Origin: Gemmatimonadota bacterium
GTDB lineage: Bacteria; Gemmatimonadota; Gemmatimonadetes; Gemmatimonadales; Gemmatimonadaceae
Length of the DNA: 64,000 bases
Assembly: GCA_016182795.1 (NCBI GenBank)
Contig: JACPFW010000001.1
Span: forward strand, 16,248 to 80,247
Direction: 5' to 3'
The notes beneath the pieces are model-generated. The model made no database searches, was not told the origin of the DNA, and saw only the letters and a program-made list of their open reading frames with translations. Of this stretch, positions 16,602-53,551 are shown piece by piece (the first letter of the stretch is position 1; every line of letters starts with the position of its first letter). The translations under genes were made by a program, and so were the position numbers.

Positions 16602-17128
16602 CAGCCCCTCCAGTCCAGGAGCACACCGCGGCCGAAGCGCGAGGACGCGTCCGCACCATACCCGGCGGGAGCGGGAGCGTCCGCCCCGAGCAGTACGCGC
16701 ACCTGCCGGTCCGCCGATGCCGCCACGGCACGAAAGACGATCTGATTGATCGACAGCTCCGCGTCGAGCACACGTGCCGCCTGCGCCAGCTGCGTCACGG
16801 CCGCCTCCAACGCCGGCGGCGTCATGCCGCCAAACCACTCGGCGATGGCGCTAAGGCGCAACTCGCCCGACTCCCCCAGACGTTCGTTCAGCGCGCTCCG
16901 GTGAATGCGCGCTTCGTTGAGCGTGGTGAGAATGCGATGGGCGGCGCCGTTCGCCGTCTCGAGGCCATCCACGTCATCGCCGGCGACAGCCCGCCGTTGC
17001 GACCGCACCACGTCGAGCAGGGCATGTACCAGTCGCGTCTCCGTTTCGAGCGCGCCGACGAGCATGGCTGTGAGTTGCGCCGTGGACCGCGGGGTGGCGA
17101 GGGTCACGGAAGGCGCCTTGGGCGTCAC
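16601..17128 (-). CDS. flgN: FlgN-like export chaperone for FlgK/FlgL
   Basis: 175 residues and mostly helical, with the pattern of PF05130 (FlgN): LVGALETETRLVHALLDVV near the start, then heptad-like helices. The position directly before flgK supports the call more than the sequence does. The GTG start overlaps the flgJ stop by four bases (GTGA). It would keep hook-associated proteins soluble before export. Confidence 0.75.
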   Translation of the reverse strand: MTPKAPSVTLATPRSTAQLTAMLVGALETETRLVHALLDVVRSQRRAVAGDDVDGLETANGAAHRILTTLNEARIHRSALNERLGESGELRLSAIAEWFGGMTPPALEAAVTQLAQAARVLDAELSINQIVFRAVAASADRQVRVLLGADAPAPAGYGADASSRFGRGVLLDWRG

Positions 17129-17409
17129 GGGCGGTCTCCGAGCTGTCGGGCGATGGCCGCGGCGATGCCGCGCGACCACGCGGTGGGCACGGTCGCTGCC
17201 ACGTGGCCATCCATCATGCCCGTGAAGATCTCCTCGCCCGTGCCACCGCTGGCGAGTCCACCGTCAGGCACCGTGGCGCGCATCGCCTTGAACATCTCGG
17301 TGACGAACACGCCTTCGAGTTGTCCGGCGACGTCGCGCAGTGGGCGGGGATCGCGCGTGGGCGGCGCCATCGAGGCGTCGCGCGAGACAGTGGCGTCAAT
17401 GCGCGTCAT
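17125..17409 (-). CDS. flgJ: FlgJ-type rod-binding protein, single domain
   Basis: 94 residues comprising only the rod-binding module (LEGVFVTEMFKAMRATVPDG followed by EEIFTGMMDGHVA). The C-terminal muramidase domain found in gamma-proteobacterial FlgJ is absent. It probably caps the growing rod. The ATG overlaps the flgI stop (ATGA). The lack of a hydrolase here matters because FliK in this locus carries a peptidoglycan peptidase domain. Confidence 0.88.
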   Translation of the reverse strand: MTRIDATVSRDASMAPPTRDPRPLRDVAGQLEGVFVTEMFKAMRATVPDGGLASGGTGEEIFTGMMDGHVAATVPTAWSRGIAAAIARQLGDRP

Positions 17410-32842: not shown

Positions 32843-33517
32843 TTAGGGACGGGCCGTCACGGACTGCACGGCAGAGAGGAGGTACGCGAGCGCGCCAGAG
32901 GTAATGACAATCGCGCCGTCGCGCACGCCGATGCCGTCGACGGCAACGGGCACGGATGCGGACGGATGGGTGACGGTGTCACCGGACGTCAAATCGAACT
33001 CGACGTGGTAGCGGCCGGCGGGGAGGCCGCTCGTGATCGCATCCAGCGCGACGCGCTGGGGGCCCGCCGTGACGCTGCCGACGTCCTGAGTGGCCATGGT
33101 CTTTCCCGCGTCATCGACCACGCGCAGCGTGAGCGATCCGCCGGTGCCGTCAATCGTGGCGGAGGCCCACGGCGTGGCGCCGTCGCCCACCGTGATACCA
33201 CTGTCCTGCACGATGGCCGTCTTGCCGATCATCGAAAGCGCCGATGAGCGGTCCATCGCCGCGATCAATCCCGACGAGTCACTCCCTTGCGTGCGCAGCA
33301 GGTCGCCGATGTTGATCAACTGCTCAAGCGAGGAGAATTGTGCCAATTGCGCGGCCATCGCCGTGCCATCGGCCGGGTTGAGCGGATCCTGATGGCGCAT
33401 CTGCGCCACCAGCAGTTTCATGAAGGCGCTCTTGTCGAGCGCGCCGCCGGCGACGGCGGCTGCCGTCGTCGTTGCACCGGCACTGCTCCCCTGTGGGGCT
33501 GAGACTGCCGAGATCAT
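32843..33517 (-). CDS. flgD: Hook-capping protein FlgD
   Basis: 224 residues. FMKLLVAQMRHQDPLNPADG and QLAQFSSLEQLINIGDLL (signature sequences) are followed by a C-terminal Ig/FlgD-Tudor-like part. Export substrate that caps the growing hook. The ATG overlaps the fliK stop. Confidence 0.95.
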   Translation of the reverse strand: MISAVSAPQGSSAGATTTAAAVAGGALDKSAFMKLLVAQMRHQDPLNPADGTAMAAQLAQFSSLEQLINIGDLLRTQGSDSSGLIAAMDRSSALSMIGKTAIVQDSGITVGDGATPWASATIDGTGGSLTLRVVDDAGKTMATQDVGSVTAGPQRVALDAITSGLPAGRYHVEFDLTSGDTVTHPSASVPVAVDGIGVRDGAIVITSGALAYLLSAVQSVTARP

Positions 33518-35400
33518 GCATGCTCCTGGTGCGAAGGCCGGCGCGAGCGGTCGCCCTGCCGGTGCTCGCCGGGAAACTGTCGTGGCGAGCGCCGATCCTG
33601 ATCGGCACGCGCCTCATGACCATTCTGCCTTGCGAAGATCGTGCCAGACGCTGCGCGAGCGTCGCCGGCAGCGTCCACCAGCGTGGTTCGCCACTCCGGT
33701 GGGAGCGGCGCAGGCTCCGTCGTCGCCGTGGCCGCGCCTGCGTGCCGAACGCTGATGGCGTCGGTGCGCAGCCCAAGCTCGGCCAGCGCGTCGTGCAGTT
33801 GCGCCGTTGATGCGGAAAGTTCTGCCGCTCGGCCAGAGTTGTCCGTCTGGATCGCAGCGCGAACCGCCGAGCCGCGCAGGGTGACGAGAATACGAGTCAC
33901 CTCGCCGTTGTCATTCGCCACCTGCAGCGACATGTGAGACAGCGATGCTTCCGTGCGTGCCGATAAGAGCGCGGCCACGTGGGCCACGCGCAGTGCCACC
34001 TCCGCGTGCGGCACTGCGACACTGGCGGGAGCTGCCGGCACGGACGGCACGGTGTTGGTCGCGAGTGCTCCCGCTGGTGTGACCGTGGCAGTCGCGAGCG
34101 GCTCGCGGGCGTCGGCTGGAGTGGGCGCTGCCGGTGCCGGAGACAGGGTCGTCGATATCCGGCGCGCGAGGCGTGCCGATTCGCGGGCCGGCAACGCCTC
34201 GGGAGTCACGCGGGTCAATTCCACGTGCCCCGGGTCTCGGCGGCCCAGCGTGCGCAGCCCTTCTTCTGCGGCGATGGCGCGGAGGCGCTCATAGCCGCGC
34301 CCCGAGCTGCTGGTGTTATCCACCACGAGATCGGCGGCTGTGCCATCGCGATGATGCGAGCGCCGGGTCCATGTGACAATCGGTCCCGGCGCCGTGCGCC
34401 CCTGCGCGTACAGCGTCTCCTGCCGCGCCTGCGACCGCACGGTTTCGTTCACCCGCACATCGTAGCCTTCGTCGCGAAGCCGCGTGATTACCCGCGACAA
34501 TGGACGTCGAAATGCGGGCGCCAGCACGTCGAGATCACGTACGACGGACCGCGCGTGCGTGGTCCGATGGATGCCCGTCGCCGTTTCCGCCGCGGTGCTG
34601 GAACCATCGGCGTCGCGCGCCGCCGCACGGTCGGCGGTTTCACCATCCTGACGCCGCGCCTCGCGGAGCAGATCTCGCCAATTATCGCCGCGCGGCTCGA
34701 TGGACGCCGCGTCAGGCGCGGAGACTTCCGACGCCGCGTCAGCGAGCAACGCCGACGATGCGTCGCCAGCGCCGCCGTCGTCGGGAGTGCGGGGGAACAC
34801 ACTGCTGGCAGGCACGTCGGCGGGTTTCGACGCGGGCGCGGCGGAAAGCTCGCCAGCCGGCGAGCGGTTCACGGCATGGGTCCACAGCACCCGCGAGGCG
34901 TCGGGGTCCGCCCACGGCGTGCGATGCACCACGGTCTCGTACAGTGTGCGCGCTGCGGGCTCGGTCGGTGCAGAAATTTCGTTGTCGCGCTCGCCGTCCG
35001 TCGGCACCACATGGTCGTCGATGACGCGCGCGACTGGCGAGGAGATGTTGCCGACCGATGGCATCGCACCGCTCAACGTCGCCGGTGTGAGCGTGGCGAG
35101 CGGCGTGGGCACCGGACGGCTCACGTGCCCCCACGTCCCCACGATCGAACCGGCGTCGGATTCCGCGTCGTCGGGGCGCTCAGCCCCCAGTCCGTCGCGC
35201 ACCGCGTCGGTCGCTTCGGCATCGGTGGGCGACGCGCGACCCGTCGCATCCTCGGCCGCCGCGGCATTCAGAAGCGAGAGGAAATCGAGCGTGGCGTCCG
35301 TCGATGCGTCGCCGAGCGATGCCTTTCCTTCCAGCCCGGCACGCGCGGCCCCAAGGCCCGGCGGCGCGAAGCGCGGCGTGGCGACAATACTCGTGCTCAT
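33514..35400 (-). CDS. fliK: Hook-length control protein FliK with an embedded M15 peptidoglycan peptidase domain
   Basis: 628 residues. Residues 1-280 are disordered and Ala/Asp-rich, as in FliK. Residues about 285-395 form a full M15 (VanY/endolysin L-Ala-D-Glu type) peptidase: QETLYAQGRTAPGPIVTWT, then the zinc motif SxHxxGxAxD at 348-357 (ligands H350 and D357), and DPGH at 389-392 with the third ligand H392. Residues about 465-550 are the FliK C-terminal (Flg_hook) domain, and the tail is Gln/His/Arg-rich as usual. The ATG right after the motE stop (TAAGATG) is preferred to a GTG four codons earlier. Position between motE and flgD confirms the fliK slot. A peptidase inside FliK would be exported through the rod; what it cuts is inference. 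Confidence 0.9.
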   Translation of the reverse strand: MSTSIVATPRFAPPGLGAARAGLEGKASLGDASTDATLDFLSLLNAAAAEDATGRASPTDAEATDAVRDGLGAERPDDAESDAGSIVGTWGHVSRPVPTPLATLTPATLSGAMPSVGNISSPVARVIDDHVVPTDGERDNEISAPTEPAARTLYETVVHRTPWADPDASRVLWTHAVNRSPAGELSAAPASKPADVPASSVFPRTPDDGGAGDASSALLADAASEVSAPDAASIEPRGDNWRDLLREARRQDGETADRAAARDADGSSTAAETATGIHRTTHARSVVRDLDVLAPAFRRPLSRVITRLRDEGYDVRVNETVRSQARQETLYAQGRTAPGPIVTWTRRSHHRDGTAADLVVDNTSSSGRGYERLRAIAAEEGLRTLGRRDPGHVELTRVTPEALPARESARLARRISTTLSPAPAAPTPADAREPLATATVTPAGALATNTVPSVPAAPASVAVPHAEVALRVAHVAALLSARTEASLSHMSLQVANDNGEVTRILVTLRGSAVRAAIQTDNSGRAAELSASTAQLHDALAELGLRTDAISVRHAGAATATTEPAPLPPEWRTTLVDAAGDARAASGTIFARQNGHEARADQDRRSPRQFPGEHRQGDRSRRPSHQEHA

Positions 35401-35401
35401 C

Positions 35402-36031
35402 TTACCGGCCACTCGGGCGCATCAGGCCGCGGCTCACCGCCGCGGCGCGCTCTGGCGGAAGCAGCGAGAGAATCTCACCGGCGCGGCGCTCCGGGAGCGC
35501 ACCGAGAATTGTACGCGCGTCGTCATCGGTCATCTGTGAGAGCACCTGCGCCGCCCGCTTCGGCTCCATCGCGTTGAACATCTTCGAGAGCCGGCTGCCG
35601 GCGACGAGCGCCGAGGGACGCGCGCCGCTGTCGGGCAATGGCGTCGCGCGCGCCGCGGTTTGCTGCGCGGCCGGCCCGGCACGTTCTGCCGGCGTGACCG
35701 CCCCGGTGGTTGCCGGGGTGGCAATCGGCCGAGCCGGCGGCACCGTCGCTGACGCTTTCACCGAGGGCTCCGCCGTGGGTGCCGGCGCGGGTGAATGCCC
35801 CATCGGCGCGGTTGCGGGAGCAGACGCTGTCGAATCTGCCGGCGGCGCGGGGACGATGGACGTATCGGTTTGTACGGAGTCGCCCGGCGCGCGGGCGGCG
35901 AGTGAGTCACGCGTTGTGGTGATGTCGCCAACGCTGGCGGCGGGCTGCTGCGTCCGGCCGGCGAGCACGTACGACGTCCCCGCCGTCGCGAGGACGAATG
36001 CCGCCAGAAACAGGATCACCAGCTGCTTCAT
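35402..36031 (-). CDS. motE: MotE-like flagellar chaperone (MgtE-N domain)
   Basis: 209 residues. One N-terminal membrane segment (LVILFLAAFVLATAGTSYVL), a long Pro/Ala/Thr linker, and a C-terminal helical MgtE-N-like domain (MFNAMEPKRAAQVLSQMTDD and ILSLLPPERAA). Proteins of this layout between fliJ and fliK are named MotE and help stabilise the stator protein MotC or export components. The ATG overlaps the fliJ stop. Confidence 0.8.
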   Translation of the reverse strand: MKQLVILFLAAFVLATAGTSYVLAGRTQQPAASVGDITTTRDSLAARAPGDSVQTDTSIVPAPPADSTASAPATAPMGHSPAPAPTAEPSVKASATVPPARPIATPATTGAVTPAERAGPAAQQTAARATPLPDSGARPSALVAGSRLSKMFNAMEPKRAAQVLSQMTDDDARTILGALPERRAGEILSLLPPERAAAVSRGLMRPSGR

Positions 36032-41414: not shown

Positions 41415-41765
41415 TCAGCCTCGTACGTCCAGCCGGCCGCCGCGCACCACGGGCGGCGTTGGCGCACGCTGTGGCGACATGACCTTGAGGTACGTCAGCG
41501 GTCCACGCGTGGCCGAATTCGCGAAGAAGGCGCGCTCGTCGGCGGTGAGAATGCTCCACAGTTCCGGGTCGGTGCCGGGCGGCGCCTCGACGGGCACTGC
41601 CGGTCCTCTGCTCGCGGCCGCTGGAGCGGCGGCCGGCGATCCCGTGGACACTGGTGGCTCTGCGGAATGCTGCGGCGGCGCGCCGGCTGGCGCGCGTGGC
41701 GCGGCTGGCGCTGGCCGGCTGAGCGGGCCTGCGGGGAGTGGGCGGAAGGTGCCGTCGATTTGCAT
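41415..41765 (-). CDS. Small Pro/Ala-rich protein of the rod operon, unknown function
   Basis: 116 residues. The first 65 are Pro/Ala-rich and likely disordered. The C-terminal part holds DPELWSILTADERAFFANSA and GPLTYLKV, which looks like a conserved short module. It lies one base from fliE and 11 bases from flgC. GAGGG precedes the ATG at 41765. I do not recognise a named family. Context suggests a basal-body accessory or export-related protein. Confidence 0.72.
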   Translation of the reverse strand: MQIDGTFRPLPAGPLSRPAPAAPRAPAGAPPQHSAEPPVSTGSPAAAPAAASRGPAVPVEAPPGTDPELWSILTADERAFFANSATRGPLTYLKVMSPQRAPTPPVVRGGRLDVRG

Positions 41766-41776
41766 CACAGGAGCCC

Positions 41777-44437: not shown

Positions 44438-44794
44438 TCAGCAGAGCCGGTCGACGAGACGCGCGTGCCCCACTGACAGGCCGCCGTATCGCGAGATCGC
44501 GTCCGATACCGCCTGCAGTTCGGCGCTCTCGTCGCGCAGCGCGGCCGAGCGCGCCTCCAGCATGTGCAGCAGATCGGCATGGCTGCGCCGCACCCGTTCG
44601 GCCGCCGCCTCGGTGCGGCCATCCACCGGGCGTCCTTCCAGTCGCAGCCGTTGCGAGATGCGGTCGACGACCGCGTCCACGGAATCGAGCAGCTCTACGG
44701 CGCTCTCGATGTCGTCGTTCACCTTGTCCCGTGCCGCGTCGAGCACCCGCGCGAGGTGCTCAAAGTGGTCGGCCGCCGATCGCCGGTCGCTCAT
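44438..44794 (-). CDS. FliT-like helical protein downstream of fliS
   Basis: 118 residues, all-helical, charged (DIESAVELLDSVDAVVDRIS and LLHMLEARSAALRDESAE). The size and place directly after fliS fit FliT, the FliD chaperone, but no diagnostic motif is visible. Its start overlaps the fliS stop by four bases. Confidence 0.65.
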   Translation of the reverse strand: MSDRRSAADHFEHLARVLDAARDKVNDDIESAVELLDSVDAVVDRISQRLRLEGRPVDGRTEAAAERVRRSHADLLHMLEARSAALRDESAELQAVSDAISRYGGLSVGHARLVDRLC

Positions 44795-50554: not shown

Positions 50555-53551
50555 TCACGGCGCGACCGTCAGCCCGAGTTGGGTGACGAGCCGATCGGCT
50601 TGGCGCGGCCACGGCAGTTCGTGCATCAGCGCTGCGCCGGCGGCTCCCCGTCGGCGCGCGCCAACCCGGTCGTCGTACGCCGCTTCCATCCGTTCGACGA
50701 GTTCATCGGGGTCCGACTCGCCCCAGCAGAGCGTGCCGCCGTATAGCGCCGGCGCGCGCACGATCGGAGCCTGCTGCCCAAGGGCATAGCACGTGTCGAC
50801 TCCGATGAGATTGAGGTGCCCGGTGTTGGCCGCGAGCACCACGGGCGCCCCGCAGGCCATCGCTTCCATCGCGACCAGATTGGTGCCGCCCTCGCAGCGG
50901 TTCGGGAAGACGGCCACGTCCACGTCGCGCAGCACCGACGCGATCACGGCATGCGTCTGCAGGCCGAGATCGAGCACGGACTCGGGCGGAATGCCGTGTC
51001 GCGCGAGCCAGGGCACCACCTGCAGCTGCCCGGCCACGACGTCGGGCAACCCGTGTACGTACCCCATCGCATCGAGGCCGGCCATCGTCGCCGGCCAATG
51101 GTTGTGCCACGCGGTCACCAGCACGGCGTCGTCGTGCCGCGCGCGGAACCGGCGAAAGGCCTCCACGACGATATCCTGCCCTTTGCGATACTCGAGCTTG
51201 CCGCCGCTGAACACGAGGAACCGGTCGCCGAGCGTGCCGCTGGGCGGGCCGGGGTGGAACAGGGCAGGGTCCACGCCCTGCAGCAGCAGCGACACCTGGC
51301 GCACGCCAAGTGCCTTGAGGTACTCCGCGTTCCACGTGGAGCCGGCAATGATGCTGTCGTACGCGTTGACGCGCGCGAGCGCCGCTGCATCCCACGCGGT
51401 GTCTTCAAAGAAGATCGTCCCCACATGCGGCGCGCCACGCGGCGCTTCGGCGGTCGGGTCACCCAGGGCATGGTTGCCGAGCGCCACCAGCCGCGCGCGC
51501 ACGTTGCCCGCGGCGCGTGGCGCGACACGCAGGTCGCCGACCGCCGCGCGCTGCAGCGGCGACAACCCGTCGAGCACCGGCGGCGACGCAAGAACCGGCT
51601 CCACGTGCGCGCTGCGCCGCAGCGCGATGGCGAGATGCATGCCGTACGTCCCCCAGCCGGACTGCACCCCAATTGGCCACGCGATCTCCAACGGCCTCCG
51701 GTCGCTGGTCAGCGCGCGCCCGGCCGGGGCGCGTCCCGTCGGCGCCATGTCGCGCCGCGGCGCGAGATCCGCGCACACCGCGGCGATCACGTCGGCCCAG
51801 GCGCCGTGGCGCGGCTGTCGGTAGATGCGCATCGACTCGTACCACGGCGAATCGGTGCGGTCCACCATCCACCGCCAGTCGGGGACGTGCGGGCATAGCA
51901 TCCAGACGGGAGCCCCGAGCGCGCCGGCAAGGTGCGCGATCGACGTGTCGACCGTGATCACCAGATCGAGCGCGGCGATGGCTGCCGCGCTGTCGGAGAA
52001 GTCGTGCAGTGCCGGGTCGAGGTCAATCACACCTGCGGCGCCGGGCGCGCTGGCGAGCTGCGCCGCGGCCGGCCCTTTCTGCAGGCTCACGAAGGTGACA
52101 TCCTCCAAGGCCAGCAGCGGATCCAGCGTCGCGAGCGGCACCGAGCGCAGCAGGTCGCGCTGATGCGACGGATTCCCTGCCCACACCAGCCCCACGCGCA
52201 GCCGTCCGGGCAGGGAAGCCACGCGCTCGCCCACCGGGCGGGCCGGCGCGCGCAGATAGCCCGCGGCGTGGGGCACCGAGTCGGGTGTCGTGCCGCACAG
52301 CATCGGCAGACTCATGACGTATGCAAACGTGTCGAACGGAGGCAGCGGCTCACCCGGCGACACCGTCGCATCCACCCCCGTCATGTCGCGAAGCAGCGGC
52401 ACGAGCGACGCCGGACACTCAAGCAGCACACGCCCGGCGCCTCGCGCCTTGAGCACTGTGGCATACCGCGCGCACTGGATCACGTCGCCGATCCCCTGCT
52501 CGGCAATTATCAGAATCGAGCGGCCGGCCAGCGGCGCGCCATTCCACTCCTCAACCGCGAACCGCCGGCGCGTGAAGAGCACCGAGATGAGCCGCTTGCG
52601 CGCCTCAAAGGCCCGGAAGCCGTTCGCAAAGTCGCCGCGCAGCAGCGTGAGCACCGCGAGATTCCATAGGGCGTTGCGGTTGTCGGGCTCCAGCGCCAGC
52701 ACCTCGCGATGCAGCCGCTCCGCCTCCGCCCAATCCGCGCGCTCGAACGCGCAGTTTCCCAGCACGTTGAGCGCCTCGGCGTGGCCCGGATGCTCGGCCA
52801 CGAGTTGCGCGGCAATCTCGTGCGCCGCGTCAAGCTGGTTCATCTCCATTAAGAGCACGGCGAGATTCACGCGCGCCGCGGCGTGCGTGGGCGCCAGCGC
52901 GAGCGCTGCGTCGATTGCTGCGCGGGCGTCGTCGAACCGGCGTCGTTCCTTCTCGATGATTCCCAGATTGCTGAGCGCGTCGACATACGAGGCATCGACC
53001 ACCAGCGCCGCCCGCATGGCGTCGGCAGCCTCGTCCAGACGGCGCAGCCCGCGCAGGGCGATGCCGCGGTTGGCAATGGCGGGCGCGCTCGCTGGGTCGA
53101 GCTCGACGGCCCGATCGTAGGCCGCCAACGCCTCGTCGCAACGCTGTTCGCCGAGCAGCAGATTGCCGAGATCGATCCACCAGGCGGAGCGACCGGCGTC
53201 GCGCGCCACGGCCGCGGTGAGGGCTGCGATACCTTCGTCCGGACGCCGCAGCGCACCGAGCGCGAGGCCAAGGTTGTGGTGCGCCTCCGCATCCGACGGA
53301 TCGTGCGCGACCGACTGGCGGAAGCACCGCTCCGCCTCGGCGAGTTCGCCGCGGTCAGCGAGGATCGCGCCGAGGTTGTTCAGCGCGGGCGCGCACAGTG
53401 GGTCGAGCGCGAGCACCTGCCGGTAGCCGTCGGCGGCGTCGTTCAACGCGCCGCGCATGTGGCGGCGTGTGGCAGCGTCGAGCAGCGTGCGCGCCTGCGG
53501 CGCCGCGGTCGGCCGCGCTGCGCGCGGATGCGCCGTGCGCTGGCGCGACAT
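50555..53551 (-). CDS. TPR-GT9-GT4 protein, probable flagellin glycosyltransferase
   Basis: 998 residues. About eight TPR repeats cover 25-340 (ALNNLGAILADRGELAEAER is a clear one). A GT9/heptosyltransferase-like domain spans about 350-600 (SILIIAEQGIGDVIQCARYA and LVITVDTSIAHLAGALGAPV). A GT4-like domain occupies about 620-998 (LEYRKGQDIVVEAFRRFRAR, then CEGGTNLVAMEAMACGAPVV with the E-x7-E region). TPR plus glycosyltransferase is the layout of many protein O-glycosyltransferases. The ATG overlaps the fliW stop, and fliC follows after one gene, so flagellin is the likely substrate. The donor sugar is unknown. Confidence 0.85.
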   Translation of the reverse strand: MSRQRTAHPRAARPTAAPQARTLLDAATRRHMRGALNDAADGYRQVLALDPLCAPALNNLGAILADRGELAEAERCFRQSVAHDPSDAEAHHNLGLALGALRRPDEGIAALTAAVARDAGRSAWWIDLGNLLLGEQRCDEALAAYDRAVELDPASAPAIANRGIALRGLRRLDEAADAMRAALVVDASYVDALSNLGIIEKERRRFDDARAAIDAALALAPTHAAARVNLAVLLMEMNQLDAAHEIAAQLVAEHPGHAEALNVLGNCAFERADWAEAERLHREVLALEPDNRNALWNLAVLTLLRGDFANGFRAFEARKRLISVLFTRRRFAVEEWNGAPLAGRSILIIAEQGIGDVIQCARYATVLKARGAGRVLLECPASLVPLLRDMTGVDATVSPGEPLPPFDTFAYVMSLPMLCGTTPDSVPHAAGYLRAPARPVGERVASLPGRLRVGLVWAGNPSHQRDLLRSVPLATLDPLLALEDVTFVSLQKGPAAAQLASAPGAAGVIDLDPALHDFSDSAAAIAALDLVITVDTSIAHLAGALGAPVWMLCPHVPDWRWMVDRTDSPWYESMRIYRQPRHGAWADVIAAVCADLAPRRDMAPTGRAPAGRALTSDRRPLEIAWPIGVQSGWGTYGMHLAIALRRSAHVEPVLASPPVLDGLSPLQRAAVGDLRVAPRAAGNVRARLVALGNHALGDPTAEAPRGAPHVGTIFFEDTAWDAAALARVNAYDSIIAGSTWNAEYLKALGVRQVSLLLQGVDPALFHPGPPSGTLGDRFLVFSGGKLEYRKGQDIVVEAFRRFRARHDDAVLVTAWHNHWPATMAGLDAMGYVHGLPDVVAGQLQVVPWLARHGIPPESVLDLGLQTHAVIASVLRDVDVAVFPNRCEGGTNLVAMEAMACGAPVVLAANTGHLNLIGVDTCYALGQQAPIVRAPALYGGTLCWGESDPDELVERMEAAYDDRVGARRRGAAGAALMHELPWPRQADRLVTQLGLTVAP

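Follow-up and report, generated by a model that had tools for sequence, protein, structure and literature searches.

A FliK-type flagellar protein with an internal M15 peptidase domain in Gemmatimonadota: a candidate wall-opening enzyme carried by the hook-length ruler

The hook-length control and substrate-switch protein FliK (PF02120; structures 2rrl and, for the injectisome protein PscP, 5cuk) is characterized by a C-terminal switch fold and by an unstructured N-terminus devoid of a Sec signal, and its gene lies next to flgD and flgE. In Salmonella, FliK is secreted throughout the assembly of the rod and the hook, and a fusion of FliK to beta-lactamase is active in the periplasm (PMC13344023); an enzyme borne by FliK can therefore be delivered to this compartment. 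In most beta- and gamma-proteobacteria the wall is opened by a dual-domain FlgJ, which combines the rod cap with a wall hydrolase, while in bacteria whose FlgJ has a single domain the lytic enzymes are separate proteins (PMC8517470), such as the lytic transglycosylases SltF of Rhodobacter and BB0259 of Borrelia (PMC8517470). A further group of wall-cutting enzymes, the M15C L-Ala-D-Glu endopeptidases (Ply500, LysB4, LysECD7 and ChiX of Serratia), consists of endolysins or separate secreted enzymes.

The gene analyzed here is located at positions 33514-35400, on the minus strand of the window, which is a stretch of 64,000 nucleotides from a Gemmatimonadota genome. We confirm that it encodes one FliK-type protein carrying an internal M15 metallopeptidase domain in addition to the FliK C-terminal switch domain. 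It has the switch fold, the N-terminal properties and the gene neighborhood of the known FliK proteins, and differs from them by the internal metallopeptidase domain. The earlier note on this DNA named no described FliK of this kind; in a full-text literature search, with most subscription journals outside its reach, no publication was found in which a FliK carries a peptidase domain. Counted from an in-frame GTG at 35412, the open reading frame (33514-35412, minus strand) comprises 632 amino acids, and 628 if translation begins at the ATG at 35400. This ATG is likely the true start because the alignment of the relatives begins there. Residues are numbered hereafter in the 632-residue frame, and subtraction of 4 gives the 628-residue numbering of the earlier note.

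The gene belongs to the large flagellar gene cluster of the window. As had been proposed, it is bordered upstream by a motE-like gene (MgtE_N; gene call at 35402-36031, minus strand; PF03448, E 5e-9) and downstream by flgD, coding for the hook cap (32843-33517, minus strand; PF03963, E 6e-21), whose start at 33517 is overlapped by the fliK stop. The same cluster contains two small open reading frames that match no Pfam family, one at 41415-41768 between fliE and flgC and the other at 44438-44794 beside fliS. Close to the flagellin gene, positions 50555-53458 encode a protein of 967 amino acids with TPR and glycosyltransferase regions, a candidate flagellin glycosyltransferase.

The N-terminal region of the protein (residues 5-287; 34552-35400, minus strand) is of low complexity and poorly conserved in the alignment of the relatives (A1), and we take it as the export and ruler segment. 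It is devoid of cysteines, and no hydrophobic signal of the Sec type was found in its first 60 residues (maximal hydropathy of 1.0 over 15 amino acids). The M15C-like peptidase domain follows (residues 288-400; 34213-34551, minus strand), as defined by phmmer, profile and PHROG searches and by the predicted fold. A linker (residues 401-463; 34024-34212, minus strand) then leads to the switch domain (residues 464-560; 33733-34023, minus strand). The C-terminal tail (residues 561-632; 33517-33732, minus strand) had been described as rich in Gln and Arg; its composition is indeed Arg-rich, with Gln being only moderately represented.

Several lines of evidence identify the internal domain. It contains the motif S352-x-H354-x-x-G357-x-A359-x-D361 (SHHRDGTAAD; 34330-34359, minus strand), of which S, H, G, A and D are invariant in A1 and in a second alignment (A2), and the motif D393-x-x-H396 (DPGH; 34225-34236, minus strand), in which D, G and H are invariant in both alignments. 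The residues that we take to be the M15 zinc ligands, H354, D361 and H396 (H350, D357 and H392 in the 628-residue numbering), and the acidic residue D393 are thus all present. A phmmer comparison with the PDB retrieved LysB4 (E 6.8e-6) and Ply500 (E 8.6e-6), which matched residues 307-365. The Ply500 match rose to E 1e-12 with the family profile, and PHROG endolysin families matched the domain with a best E value of 3.8e-19. These matches answer the doubt raised in the earlier note that a profile search might return no M15 protein. Pfam and NCBIfam scans of the FliK of the window did not name the domain, and we infer that it has probably been overlooked so far for this reason.

The predicted structure agrees with these sequence matches. 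The AlphaFold model of the domain (pLDDT 85) has the Hedgehog/DD-peptidase-type fold of M15, and its best four structural matches, LysECD7 (8q2g, Z 12.3), Ply500 (2vo9, Z 12.1), LysB4 (6akv, Z 11.7) and ChiX (5opz, Z 11.4), are all L-Ala-D-Glu endopeptidases or endolysin kin. Ply500 was aligned over 112 residues at 3.2 Å, with a Foldseek E value of 4e-8. Because these structures outscore the VanY/LdcB group (Z near 9.5), the M15C branch is the closest, and by homology the bond cut would be L-Ala-D-Glu. The fold, the two motifs and the segment LYAQGRTxPG are common to the FliK domain and the M15C enzymes. However, the FliK domain is compact (around 113 amino acids), is barely detected or missed by Pfam, and forms an internal part of a protein presumed to be exported by a type III system.

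In the C-terminal domain, Flg_hook (PF02120) matched residues 507-559 with an E value of 3e-4, which is below Pfam's own cutoff, but this cutoff was passed in 15 of 118 genomes of the family. A sequence search of the PDB for homologues of this domain gave nothing convincing. The predicted fold (pLDDT 80) nevertheless matched FliK-C (2rrl, Z 9.6) and PscP (5cuk, Z 8.6), with no other entry at Z 8 or above, in agreement with the Flg_hook domain previously proposed. In most relatives the linker preceding this domain is abundant in VA-x triplets, and 73 of 103 sequences have at least five of them consecutively (columns around 650-700 of A1; for example L036:8284-10176); they are weak in the protein of the window. 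Such a linker could be a ruler or a helical element.

To count the fusion without bias, FliK proteins were collected with the FliK domain alone (PF02120), blind to M15, in 50 genomes. After removal of four false matches and of two genes cut by contig ends, 44 FliK proteins of Gemmatimonadaceae could be judged. All 44 contain an M15-derived domain, and 43 of them retain both zinc motifs. This count is free of the bias affecting the zinc-site counts from a scan of 84,980 species, which was performed with one narrow peptide pattern that itself includes DxGH. The fusion was also found in two other families at the level of the class (f4 and f5), including records named Longimicrobiales. The gene order fliG-fliH-fliI-(fliJ)-(motE)-fliK-flgD-flgE is kept, and fliK is adjacent to flgD/flgE in nearly all loci whose contig extends to the neighbors. 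The fusion is thus present in the close relatives, where the earlier note had suggested looking for it. The alternative raised there, a sequencing join of two separate genes, was rejected since every relative of sufficient length has a single open frame, with the same architecture in dozens of genomes. A tree of the M15 domains (112 columns) does not discriminate between a single and a multiple origin of the FliK form.

Several candidates were discarded. Three apparent fusions outside Gemmatimonadota, L166 (Candidatus Kuenenia), L192 (Planctomycetota) and L170 (labeled only 'bacterium'), come from mislabeled or contaminated bins, because their flagellar genes are 85-99% identical to those of Gemmatimonadaceae. 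Two plasmid matches are similar to the M15 part only, and five Flg_hook matches (L107-L109, L111 and L112) were false. In a further class-level family (f6), the M15 matches are separate proteins lacking the SxHxxGxAxD motif and not FliK.

No other part of the protein is as conserved as the M15 domain or under purifying selection as strong. Invariant residues occupy 25 of the 122 columns of its alignment. Both motifs are intact in 79 of the 80 distinct domains of all collections, and in each of these 79 they are separated by 33-35 residues. In 24 close pairs, the dN/dS values of the M15 domain were mostly 0.02-0.13 (0 to 0.19 overall), as compared to 0.1-0.5 for the linker and the N-terminal region. 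This contrast is the one expected of a functional enzyme borne by a carrier under little constraint. The earlier note had also envisaged a folded ruler stop that has lost activity, and the retention of the catalytic residues together with the low dN/dS values disfavors it. In a related reading, the domain would act mainly mechanically: it would fold on emerging from the rod or hook and serve as a stop or as a sensor of wall contact, the switch being set by the linker length or by the contact, with catalysis incidental. The position of the domain between two low-complexity FliK segments fits this explanation, and the length of the linker is somewhat less variable than that of the N-terminal part (coefficient of variation 0.31 versus 0.44). 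However, the linker still ranges from 37 to 344 amino acids, and a stop has no need for invariant zinc ligands and a second motif, which are left unexplained. We consider a mainly mechanical role improbable.

The only exception among the judged FliK proteins comes from genome G035 (L217:4830-6551, minus strand), in which a remnant of the M15 domain has lost both zinc motifs within an otherwise normal flagellar cluster. A frameshift was rejected as the cause of this decay, because the motif was restored in no frame. In the sister genomes G085 and G105 the zinc site is preserved, and G035 represents a natural loss experiment. In a sister family of the same order (f2; L200-L204), FliK is plain, FlgJ is single-domain, and no M15C protein was detected in the genomes. 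The decay and the absence imply that the activity is dispensable in these bacteria or supplied by other hydrolases. They also lend something to the idea that the domain is a relic being lost and retained by chance; yet the strong purifying selection and the invariance across families of the class make this highly improbable.

The FlgJ encoded in the window (17125-17409, minus strand; PF10135, E 1.8e-10) is a rod-binding protein of about 94 amino acids and lacks a hydrolase domain, which bears out the contrast drawn earlier with the FlgJ-fused hydrolases. Each of the 30 genomes examined has a single-domain FlgJ and therefore lacks the usual flagellar wall hydrolase. No other wall-hydrolase domain was found among the Pfam-scanned genes of the window, nor was a second M15C of the FliK kind in the genome itself. 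Pfam detected no rod-binding domain in the FliK protein, which thus does not reproduce the rod-binding plus hydrolase arrangement of the dual-domain FlgJ. Compared with that system, the proposed role is common, namely a wall hydrolase exported by the flagellum for the passage of the rod; however, the enzyme is here carried by FliK and is a peptidase rather than a glycosidase. With SltF and BB0259 it has in common a hydrolase outside FlgJ, but these are separate SLT enzymes and not part of the ruler.

On balance we lean towards the view that this FliK, a ruler and switch with a built-in M15C-type zinc endopeptidase, delivers wall-cutting activity to the periplasm for the passage of the rod. The Salmonella precedent, the single-domain FlgJ, the lack of another hydrolase domain in the window and the sole M15C of the genome favor it. 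Lacking a Sec signal, FliK would be exported through the type III channel of the flagellum, starting at the rod stage, and the M15 domain would then fold in the periplasm and cut stem peptides near the rod tip, at the L-Ala-D-Glu bond if homology is a guide, so that the wall opens and the rod passes. When the rod-hook has reached a sufficient length, the C-terminal domain would still contact FlhB to switch export. The protein would stand in for the hydrolase portion of the dual-domain FlgJ. Concerning the initial proposal that the ruler itself delivers wall cutting, the domain assignment and the FlgJ contrast hold; the delivery is the best-supported explanation from sequence, fold, conservation and the published behavior of FliK.

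A counterpoint is that FliK secreted after the outer membrane has been passed would go to the medium. Since export of Salmonella FliK goes on through hook growth (PMC13344023), the later molecules end up outside the cell and could have a role there. With an intact catalytic site and endolysin-like predicted fold, the domain might then be active in another task, either remodeling the wall around the finished motor or acting on released or foreign peptidoglycan after leaving via the hook. However, the gene is strictly linked to the genes of flagellar assembly and FlgJ lacks a hydrolase, both of which point to assembly instead, and no further feature of an extracellular enzyme (signal, wall-binding domain) was seen; another task appears unlikely.

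Many bacteria have a FlgJ devoid of a hydrolase, which raises the question of how their rod traverses the wall. For Gemmatimonadota the conserved fusion offers a specific answer: the enzyme domain of FliK possibly replaces the FlgJ hydrolase, as a second, independent solution to its absence. The fusion also suggests that FliK can take a folded enzyme as cargo. More tentatively, the ruler may itself be the wall-opening enzyme across much of the class, a single type III substrate cutting peptidoglycan and measuring the rod-hook and thereby coupling penetration to the assembly clock. If true, wall opening would be tied to the molecule that times hook completion. In Gemmatimonadota, a widespread group of soil and water bacteria, wall opening and the timing of assembly may thus be united in one exported molecule.
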